From Aequorivita sp. CIP111184 (GTDB taxonomy: Bacteria > Bacteroidota > Bacteroidia > Flavobacteriales > Flavobacteriaceae), in NCBI RefSeq assembly GCF_900489465.1, contig NZ_UEFQ01000013.1, positions 558,001-622,000 of the forward strand: a stretch of 64,000 bases of DNA, written 5' to 3'. Made by a program: the position numbers and the translations under genes. The notes beneath the pieces were generated by a model, which was given only the letters and a program-made list of their open reading frames with translations, was not told where the DNA came from and did not search any database. Positions 22,657 to 34,741 of the stretch are shown in pieces (the stretch's first letter is position 1; each line of letters begins with the position of its first letter).

Positions 22657-22684
22657 AAGCCTCCCGAATTTAATCGGGAGGCTT
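22657..22684 (-). terminator. Intrinsic terminator of ssb
   Basis: AAGCCTCCCG at 22657-22666 pairs perfectly with CGGGAGGCTT at 22675-22684. On the minus strand the hairpin is followed by a T-rich run. It lies 16 bases after the ssb stop and before recQ. Confidence 0.8.
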
Positions 22685-34162: not shown

Positions 34163-34380
34163 AAAGTTTTAGTAGTGTTAGATTTTTAATTTTTCAATTG
34201 GTTGAAATGAAATAGGCGATAATTTAAGCTAAATATTAATTTGGTTGGCATAAAATTATTATAAAAAAATGAAACTATTATTTATTTGCAACCATCAAAT
34301 GCTAGTTCTCAATTCGGTTTCATAAAATATCAAACTATTCATCAAAAGCTTAAAAAGCGATTGTTCTAGATTTTTCCTTG
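34163..34380. other. Non-coding stretch before the tRNA-Arg repeat array
   Basis: AT-rich sequence without a plausible reading frame longer than about 20 codons. I see no hairpin followed by a T run that would end the tRNA-Arg transcript here, and no known RNA. It separates the SdiA-regulated-like gene from the repeat array. Confidence 0.6.
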
Positions 34381-34567
34381 GCCTCACAAGCCCTAAAGTT
34401 TGGGGAAGTATGGATCTAATTTAGTAGCCTCACCAACCCCGAAGCGTCGGGGGAACTTGGATCTAATTTTGTAGCCTCACCAACCCCGAAGCGTCGGGGG
34501 AACTTAGATCTAATTTTGTAGCCTCACCAACCCCGAAGCGTCGGGGGAACTTAGATCTAATTTTGTA
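34381..34567 (-). repeat. Four tandem copies of a tRNA-Arg 3' fragment carrying a hairpin
   Basis: Four units begin with GCCTCAC at 34381, 34427, 34474 and 34521; the tRNA-Arg gene's own 3' end starts the same way at 34568. Steps are 46, 47, 47 and 47 bases. Each unit keeps the tRNA acceptor 3' strand, part of the T stem and the GATCTAA segment, but the T loop is replaced: units 2-4 have CCCCGAAGCGTCGGGG, unit 1 has CCCTAAAGTTTGGG. Units 3 and 4 are identical; unit 2 differs from them by one base (CTTGG versus CTTAG). In the direction of the tRNA transcript these follow immediately after the tRNA. Confidence 0.9.
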
Positions 34568-34637
34568 GCCTCACCAAGAATCGAACTTGGATCTAAAGTT
34601 TAGGAAACTTCTATTCTATCCATTGAACTATGAGGCC
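34566..34637 (-). tRNA. tRNA-Arg (anticodon CCU)
   Basis: A complete cloverleaf on the minus strand. Acceptor GGCCTCA pairs with TGAGGCT (one G-T), D stem GTTC/GAAT, anticodon stem GAAGT/ACTTT with the loop TTCCTAA giving anticodon CCT (codon AGG), and T stem CCAAG/CTTGG with the loop TTCGATT. Discriminator A. CCA is not encoded. It sits between a truncated copy (34661-34719) and the four repeat units, and has no clear promoter of its own between it and the truncated copy. Confidence 0.93.
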
Positions 34638-34660
34638 AATTTTTTTGCTCCAATAATTAG

Positions 34661-34719
34661 TACCTAAAGTTTAGGACCCCGAGGCTTCGGGGCTATTCTT
34701 TCCATTGAACTATGAGGCC
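34661..34719 (-). pseudogene. Truncated tRNA-Arg copy with hairpin insertion
   Basis: On the minus strand it starts GGCCTCATAGTTCAATGG, as the intact tRNA-Arg does, and then AAAGAATAG, with one difference from the D stem-loop of the gene. Next the first half of the anticodon stem is replaced by the hairpin CCCCGAAGCCTCGGGG, followed by TCCTAAACTTTAGG, which holds the anticodon region. The T arm and acceptor 3' strand are missing, so it cannot form a cloverleaf. It lies 23 bases upstream of the intact gene. Confidence 0.85.
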
Positions 34720-34733
34720 TTCATTATGGAAGG

Positions 34734-34741
34734 CAAATTTA
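34734..34741 (-). promoter_or_regulatory. Candidate -7 element of the tRNA-Arg locus
   Basis: On the minus strand TAAATTTG fits TAnnTTTG and ends 14 bases before the truncated tRNA copy. It is the only such element seen upstream of either copy, so the intact tRNA may be read from it through the pseudogene. The -33 element is not clear. Confidence 0.45.

Follow-up and report, generated by a model that had tools for sequence, protein, structure and literature searches.

Hairpin-bearing tRNA fragments at a tRNA-Arg locus of Aequorivita sp. CIP111184 as probable ORF-less derivatives of a tRNA-targeting GIY-YIG element

Introduction

How does a single tRNA gene come to be surrounded by pieces of itself in which a few nucleotides have been exchanged for a GC-rich hairpin? 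The question is raised by the tRNA-Arg(CCU) locus of Aequorivita sp. CIP111184, a member of the Flavobacteriaceae, which lies in a stretch of 64,000 nucleotides that we analysed as a whole (hereafter the window; contig NZ_UEFQ01000013.1, positions 558,001 to 622,000). A first-pass annotation of this DNA described four hairpin-bearing copies of the tRNA 3′ end and one hairpin-bearing 5′ copy at 34381-34719, and attributed them to short palindromic cassettes that move into tRNA stem-loops, with the tandem copies growing by slippage or by recombination at the tRNA 3′ end.

Several known systems share parts of this arrangement. Integrative elements that use tRNA 3′ ends as att sites restore the tRNA through the insert and leave a displaced 3′ fragment behind. 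In E. coli tyrT/rtT, each tandem repeat begins with the unaltered 3′ end of the tRNA that precedes it, and no nuclease is known to take part. In REP/RAYT systems and REPINs, short palindromes scattered over the genome go together with a small nuclease gene, that of a Y1/HUH transposase. The literature includes a survey of REP sequences (PMC12306157) and a study of SegB, a free-standing GIY-YIG homing endonuclease of T-even phages that cuts within tRNA genes and drives tandem amplification of tRNA-segB units (PMC13096335).

Here, we propose that the window holds ORF-less (non-autonomous) derivatives of small tRNA-targeting GIY-YIG elements of Bacteroidota, a reading to which, mechanism included, we give a probability of roughly two in three. 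It draws on the observed architecture of the loci, the exact replacement of a tRNA segment, an empty site, variation within the genus, conservation of the nuclease and agreement between nuclease clade and replaced segment.

Results

Structure of the tRNA-Arg(CCU) locus

All features of the locus are read on the minus strand. The intact tRNA-Arg(CCU) gene occupies 34565..34637 (ARAGORN; Rfam RF00005, 65.2 bits), and at the Rfam gathering score the window yields two tRNAs only and no other known RNA family. Downstream of the gene follow tandem units that each consist of trailer and displaced T arm and 3′ end: unit 1 at 34518..34564, unit 2 at 34471..34517 and unit 3 at 34424..34470. In these three units GATTC of the T loop is replaced by CCCCGACGCTTCGGGG, a 16-nt hairpin of the form CCCCGA-N4-TCGGGG that reads CCCCGAAGCGTCGGGG on the plus strand, at 34531-34546, 34484-34499 and 34437-34452, respectively. 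When the copies were mapped onto the tRNA by script, GTTC|GATTC|TTGG became GTTC|hairpin|TTGG in all three, so that exactly 5 nt are swapped. The array has a period of 47 with 98% matches and a score of 316, compared with scores of 50-61 for the four other arrays in the window. Of the four hairpin-bearing 3′ copies that had been annotated, these three are perfect, whereas the fourth (34380..34423) is decayed: its imperfect palindrome at about 34391-34405, CCCTAAAGTTTGGG, has a mismatch within the stem, and as DNA the unit folds no better than shuffled sequence (z −0.05).

On the other side of the gene, a 5′ copy at 34664..34719 holds a displaced 27-nt 5′ fragment of tRNA-Arg (34693-34719), the hairpin CCCCGAAGCCTCGGGG (34677-34692; CCCCGAGGCTTCGGGG on the plus strand) and a right arm with 13 nt of tRNA past the replaced segment (34664-34676). 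Script mapping bears out the annotated loss of the first half of the anticodon stem, in that GAATAG|AAGTT|TCCTAAAC became GAATAG|hairpin|TCCTAAAC, again with exactly 5 nt swapped. An ORF-less spacer of 26 nt (34638..34663) separates this piece from the intact tRNA. The feature reaches beyond the annotated extent, to a promoter-like TAAATTTG at 34734..34741 upstream of the displaced 5′ fragment. This sequence matches TAnnTTTG, which we take to be the Bacteroidota promoter motif, and no TAnnTTTG motif was found between the 5′ copy and the intact tRNA-Arg; the upstream motif would once have been the promoter of the original tRNA gene.

A loose hairpin consensus, allowing for up to 2 mismatches, has 13 matches in the window where 1.0 is expected, 9 of them at the tRNA-Arg locus, palindromes being counted on both strands. 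Chance palindromes are ruled out by this excess and by reversed-pattern controls of 0 in two pattern scans, while a looser hairpin pattern gave 41 matches against 13 in its control. Elsewhere in the window, at 22662-22679, TCCCGAATTTAATCGGGA within AAAGCCTCCCGAATTTAATCGGGAGGCTT resembles an ordinary intrinsic terminator. Altogether, the tRNA gene call, the period-47 array and the script mapping establish that a tRNA-Arg(CCU) locus with hairpin-bearing partial copies is real.

Hairpin copies at other tRNAs of the genome

The stretches around all 37 tRNA places of the genome (Rfam tRNA model) were scripted for hairpins flanked by two pieces of the neighbouring tRNA; ARAGORN calls cover 36 of the 37 places, and the weakest, at 31 bits, was left out of the script test. 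Hairpin copies occur at no fewer than five of the 37: the script picked up Arg, Leu, Gly and Phe, and reading by eye added Cys. In all five clear cases the replaced segment is the 5-nt GANTC of the T loop (GAGTC in Leu). The Leu-UAG tRNA is followed by 3 units of ∼97 bp, each of which, by eye, repeats a terminator-like stretch too. At Gly-GCC there are two 60-bp units, one found by script and the second, CCCCGAAACGTCGGGG, by eye, and the Cys copy reads CAGCGGGTC, hairpin, CGCTCG. At Phe, a 93-codon GIY-YIG ORF lies between the intact tRNA and the hairpin copy. Simple slippage, one of two routes offered in the first-pass annotation, would not account for the same 5-nt swap at Arg, Leu, Gly, Phe and Cys of one genome; the other, which ties the repeats to recombination at the ends of tRNAs, was right in spirit.

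In a further stretch (L171), AATGGGTAT-TCCCGAAAAGTCGGGG-CCTTCATGACTC lies 117 nt away from where tRNA-Thr(GGU) starts and is probably a sixth, decayed copy. A script match at tRNA-Ile proved false, being the anticodon arm of the adjacent tRNA-Ala. The genome also has a second GIY-YIG ORF (G000:C35:398508-398744, locus L142) that is accompanied by no tRNA and lies among CTGAGCTTGTCGAAG / CTTCGACAAGCTCAG repeats.

Comparison of the locus across the genus

A tRNA-Arg query matched in 24 of 28 genomes of the genus. In the genus-mate G219 the order is 5′ tRNA-Arg fragment, hairpin CCCCGAAGCCTCGGGG, GIY-YIG ORF, promoter-like motif, intact tRNA-Arg and three hairpin units, such that the counterpart of the 26-nt spacer in the window is a GIY-YIG ORF with a second promoter-like motif. 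This ORF is 67% identical to the Phe ORF of Aequorivita sp. CIP111184. Since the identical hairpin stands beside an ORF in G219, what had been taken for a hairpin-invaded pseudogene in the window is the ORF-less version of the same element edge.

The genus-mate G216, on the other hand, represents the empty site, with a single tRNA-Arg and flanks that match the window outside the displaced fragments. Its upstream flank aligns to the window directly before the 5′ fragment with 100 of 112 positions identical (score 170; 30 shuffles reach no more than 62), and on the downstream side the alignment begins directly after the last displaced unit, with 84 of 116 identical (score 104; 30 shuffles reach no more than 69). 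From this alignment we infer that the original tRNA gene survives at its two ends as the displaced hairpin-bearing pieces, whereas the intact tRNA would have arrived as part of the insert.

By eye, T-loop hairpin copies are found at tRNA-Arg in six genomes of the genus: that of Aequorivita sp. CIP111184, G218, G219, G208, G213 and, in decayed form, G203. Since loops and unit numbers differ among these genomes, hairpin copies at tRNA-Arg come and go. An assembly artefact is unlikely, because G218 has 1 unit and G219 has 3 units, on a single contig, at the same tRNA. Among the 24 genus loci, no intact tRNA-Arg carries a hairpin, and at the tRNA loci that were read the hairpin sits in partial copies. 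A moving palindromic cassette captures the recurrent replacement by a hairpin, yet a free 16-nt cassette is not supported as the whole story: the partial copy that bears the hairpin marks one side of a larger unit, which in its complete form carries a GIY-YIG nuclease gene.

An RNA-level device (a decoy for tRNA processing, a 5′/3′ stabiliser of the nuclease mRNA, or an antidote to a tRNA-cutting toxin) might also be imagined here, as the displaced 5′ fragment lies downstream of the original promoter-like motif, a 3′-type hairpin copy follows close after the stop codon, and a transcript of the 339 nt would fold more stably than its shuffled versions (100 shuffles, z −4.1, a value that comes in part from the tRNA and the repeats within it). 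We consider such a device improbable, as ORF-less arrays and the empty site favour events at the DNA level and the stem lacks the variation expected of a purely structural helix.

Two further arrangements were seen in this comparison. In G213 (L227, contig C7 at about 198026-198245) three breaks interrupt an old tRNA-Arg, one after GGATA, one with CCCCGAAGTTTCGGGG at the anticodon stem and one with CCCCGACACTTCGGGG at the T loop. Inside it, two GC-rich ends that are in part complementary enclose a different tRNA-Arg(CCU) gene; this arrangement suggests that such events can lead to replacement of the tRNA gene. In four other loci (L209, L213, L225 and L018, the last at about 1580-1612), copies of tRNA-Arg or tRNA-Leu ends are joined, by eye, at another repeat, CCCTGAGCGAAGCCGAAGGG and variants, of which L225 has three tandem units. 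Repeats of the CCCTGAGCGAAGCCGAAGGG type appear to be a second family that acts likewise at tRNA ends.

The GIY-YIG nuclease

The Phe ORF of Aequorivita sp. CIP111184 matches Pfam PF01541 with an E-value of 1.6e-12, and Y5, Y16, R26 and E64, which we take to be the catalytic residues, are invariant in 19 of 19 aligned proteins. Across 28 pairs of eight genus ORFs, pN/pS is 0.20-0.37, with most pairs near synonymous saturation; by this measure, the GIY-YIG ORFs are evidently under purifying selection. Apart from PF01541, the family libraries consulted (NCBIfam, PHROGs and PADLOC) yielded no more than weak matches. The PADLOC family PDC-S14 matched 13 of 19 members (best 2e-6), which we read as the shared GIY-YIG domain. 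In the PDB, the matches are 1zg2 (E 2.1e-5) and 1ywl (E 4.9e-5), of the UPF0213 / small single-domain GIY-YIG group, which are of the same domain family and size as our proteins; the entries are named as hypothetical proteins, and the entry information describes no tRNA-linked element.

In every element that was read the ORF is GIY-YIG, with no Y1/HUH transposase there. It can be multiplied: genome G157 has seven ORF copies ∼380 bp apart (L147, C1 541800-544334), and in G123 four of five ORF matches fall within 1.8 kb with one ∼7.5 kb off (L153, L159, L162), and in both arrays hairpin-bearing tRNA ends lie between the copies. A full element is made up of a GIY-YIG gene of ∼80-100 codons, a copy of the cut-off part of the tRNA, a short arm (∼8-35 nt) from the remaining part, and a hairpin whose stem reads [C/T]CCCGA..TCGGG[G/A]. 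Units are about 350-390 bp with the GIY-YIG ORF and about 43-150 bp without it, and their arrangement has the pattern of tandem segmental amplification, with seven ORF copies in G157, three ORF-less units in G219 and three to four in the window. Carriage by phage gained no support from a scan of viral sequences: of 88 stretches with a peptide-pattern match, none proved to hold a nuclease relative. A GTTC-hairpin pattern matched 4 viral stretches.

Replaced segments and nuclease relationships

Among 72 script matches, which include noise and many loci picked by the T-loop hairpin pattern, the number of nucleotides lost is 5 in 54, 6 in 9 and 3 in 3; some of the tRNA names given by script are false, Gln above all, where a tRNA's own arm or a chimeric tRNA was matched. 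The segment that is lost depends on the tRNA and the element. It is the T-loop GANTC or alike at Phe and Pro and, in ORF-less form, at Arg, Leu, Gly, Cys, Ala, Val and Thr. At Met it is ATAAT of the anticodon loop, at Asn it is GGTCC of the variable region (with the D-loop in a 5′ Asn element), at Val and Ala it is the whole 17-nt anticodon arm, and at Asp it is an 8-nt piece of the T arm.

Which segment is replaced can be predicted from the clade of the nuclease. The segment label changes 16 times on a tree of 88 nucleases, compared with 33.7 ± 1.4 in 300 shuffles (minimum 29; 64 labelled), and the tRNA type changes 19 times, compared with 41.5 when shuffled (minimum 37; 67 labelled), in a test to which host kinship may still contribute and in which many forks are unsupported. 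Proteins shorter than 76 or longer than 125 aa and those more than 90% alike had been dropped, the 24 of 88 without a segment label were left out, and 8 loci were labelled by hand. That related nucleases are found at the same segment is as expected if the nuclease picks the segment.

These results bear on an ordinary tandem duplication of the tRNA 3′ end, whether slippage or an integrase specific for tRNAs produced it, in which the hairpin would be a chance passenger. Tandem units are indeed present, and tRNA 3′ ends are att sites. We nevertheless give this account almost no weight: the like replacement recurs across tRNAs and genera, as the 5-nt and 6-nt losses counted above illustrate; copies are of the 5′ as well as the 3′ end, with targets in the D-loop, anticodon and variable region; and an integrase gene would not fit into units of this length, the ORF that separates tRNA and copy being GIY-YIG.

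Distribution of nuclease and hairpin

By hairpin-blind protein searches, with Aequorivita sp. CIP111184 included in every count, 15 of 28 genomes of the genus have the nuclease (alignment A1, E ≤ 1e-12), as do 14 of 199 in the family (E ≤ 1e-15) and 32 of 395 in the phylum (alignment A1, E ≤ 1e-20). Of 59 loci found in this way in the genus and phylum, 45 have a same-strand tRNA within 700 bp, 45 have a [TC]CCCGA..TCGGG[AG] hairpin and 36 have both (14 lack the tRNA and 14 lack such a hairpin); these are raw counts from 81 matches listed, with some overlap and up to four loci at contig ends mis-scored. Four Arg-UCG loci lack the [TC]CCCGA..TCGGG[AG] hairpin, and one of them has a different palindrome.

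Searching instead for the hairpin, we scanned one genome per species across 84,980 species with GTTCCCCCGANNNNTCGGGG and obtained at least 141 matches in at least 120 stretches. Among the matches listed, 59 of 141, in 42 loci, adjoin a tRNA of the same strand and have 12 or more flank nucleotides that match it, and of the first 80 loci listed 34 are tRNA-linked by eye (33 in Bacteroidota and 1 in Calditrichota). The other 46 (28 in Bacteroidota, 14 in other phyla and 4 unplaced) are partly chance, partly dispersed repeats and partly cases where the tRNA lies outside the stretch. Within the genus, the hairpin occurs in 13 of 28 genomes (reversed control 0), and 27 of 30 hairpin loci have a script match beside a Thr, Cys, Phe, Leu, Arg, Gly or Val tRNA, several of these loci overlapping. 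The first-pass annotation had staked its idea on hairpins at tRNA loops in relatives, and these do recur: hairpins of one stem family repeatedly take the place of tRNA pieces, in numerous relatives and at a range of tRNAs.

Hairpins of the same stem are also found far from tRNAs. The sequence CCCGATAGCTATCGGG is dispersed in 30 of 120 family genomes, with up to 53 copies each (reversed control 0), and of 20 such loci read (L236-L255) one (L236) lies in frame within a 623-codon open frame. These dispersed copies are what one would expect if the hairpin itself were mobile in a REP-like manner, with the GIY-YIG protein acting on hairpin DNA and moving it into tRNA loops and elsewhere. The same can be said of the stem, which is CCCCGA..TCGGGG or TCCCGA..TCGGGA in 122 of 166 ORF-linked matches (noise included) with a free loop; such a near-constant stem with varying loops points to sequence-specific recognition or, as may equally be read from it, to common descent. 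A REP-like hairpin is unlikely all the same, given the exact 5-nt loss in most tRNA cases, the position of the hairpin in the displaced copies that flank the duplication and not in the intact tRNA, and the fact that the GTTC ahead of the hairpin is the T loop itself, the flanks being different at other sites.

Three side observations concern such hairpins. CCCGATAGCTATCGGG occurs once inside a cluster of 11 tRNAs (L250). Two Prolixibacteraceae MAGs (L034, L037, L071, L079, L090, L099) have a dispersed GCGAGTTC-CCCCGA(A/T)AAATCGGGG repeat, mostly in stretches without a tRNA. At L275, L281 and L283, displaced copies that have a TCCCGA..TCGGGA hairpin for an anticodon arm are called as tRNA-Arg(UCU) or tRNA-Gln(UUG) by ARAGORN; these calls are probably false tRNA genes, and public annotations may contain the same error.

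Discussion

Returning to the tRNA-targeting GIY-YIG element as the preferred reading, we can outline how it may work. The element would sit within one particular tRNA segment, with the insert supplying the missing part such that the tRNA stays functional, and the displaced end of the original gene would be left outside with its target segment, mostly 5 nt, swapped for the hairpin. The nuclease would cut a tRNA gene at the target segment (for the Phe type, GTTC/GANTC of the T loop), and repair by recombination with an element-bearing or neighbouring copy would insert or multiply the unit, which could then repeat in tandem or become ORF-less. The hairpin would serve to erase the site in the displaced copy. 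It does not alone explain self-protection, because the intact tRNA retains the presumed site.

The ORF-less units of the window could have arisen through a Phe-type nuclease acting in trans on Arg, Leu, Gly and Cys, as the T loops of these tRNAs are nearly the same as that of Phe. T-loop hairpin copies at Arg are present in 5 of 9 genus genomes with a Phe-type nuclease compared with 1 of 15 without (p 0.015, kinship ignored; one of the nine is a partial match, and that of G219 was counted by tree position). In a wider count of any GTTC-hairpin except one behind a Phe ORF, the figures are 6 of 9 compared with 5 of 19 (p 0.09). Against action in trans, G206 has ORF-less units at Phe and Leu and G208 has one at Arg, without a Phe-type nuclease. 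We take these counts as a hint, and no more, that units may be mobilised in trans.

The closest parallel is SegB. Its preferred motif RAWTSGAAC, present at 23 of 83 sites, has the reverse complement GTTCSAWTY, which corresponds to the T loop; the motif helps, although cutting in vitro does not strictly depend on it, and enzymes of this kind are said to be typically inefficient at cutting the donor allele (PMC13096335). In the genome of Aequorivita sp. CIP111184, GTTCGATTC (Arg, Phe) and GTTCGAATC (Gly, Cys) fit this motif and GTTCGAGTC of Leu has one mismatch, and the hairpin removes exactly the GANTC half of it. The two systems share a GIY-YIG domain with its catalytic residues kept, a gene that adjoins a tRNA, tandem arrays and the T-loop motif. 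They differ in that our elements are in Bacteroidota chromosomes, encode a single-domain protein of ∼93 aa, carry hairpin-substituted partial tRNA copies, have ORF-less derivatives and use several tRNA segments; the terms ‘hairpin’ and ‘palindrom’ are absent from the main text of the SegB paper (PMC13096335).

The other systems differ in more basic ways. Dispersed palindromes in 30 of 120 family genomes are reminiscent of REP/RAYT, from which the elements are set apart by GIY-YIG in place of Y1/HUH, the tRNA target, the exact loss of target nucleotides and the restoration of the tRNA by the insert. Unlike in the tyrT/rtT repeats, GATTC of the T loop is replaced in the three clear units of the window. 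Compared with integrative elements at tRNA att sites, the units measure tens to hundreds of base pairs instead of kilobases, have no integrase gene and use both ends of the tRNA, and the displaced 3′ fragment, unlike an att repeat, is not identical to the tRNA end, its target segment being a hairpin.

Among the matches listed in open-licence literature, searched by titles and the starts of abstracts, there is no description of bacterial tRNA-linked GIY-YIG elements with hairpin-substituted tRNA copies, and the family is apparently undescribed. The elements may be grouped with the free-standing GIY-YIG homing endonucleases, a new element class being possible as well. More tentatively, and at clearly less than even odds, they could form a phylum-wide class of chromosomal mobile elements inside tRNA genes that is distinct from introns, integrases, REP/RAYT and SegB, in which a sequence-specific hairpin locks the displaced half and is the end of the element, a minimal GIY-YIG protein reads the segment, ORF-less units are mobilised in trans and hairpins scatter.

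If the proposed reading is true, a common and overlooked selfish element shapes the tRNA loci of Bacteroidota. It would account for displaced tRNA pieces, tandem repeats of tRNA ends, probable false tRNA calls and many small GIY-YIG genes. The minimal nuclease, whose target shifts by clade between T loop, anticodon loop or arm, D-loop and variable region, would then offer a model for the evolution of GIY-YIG specificity.
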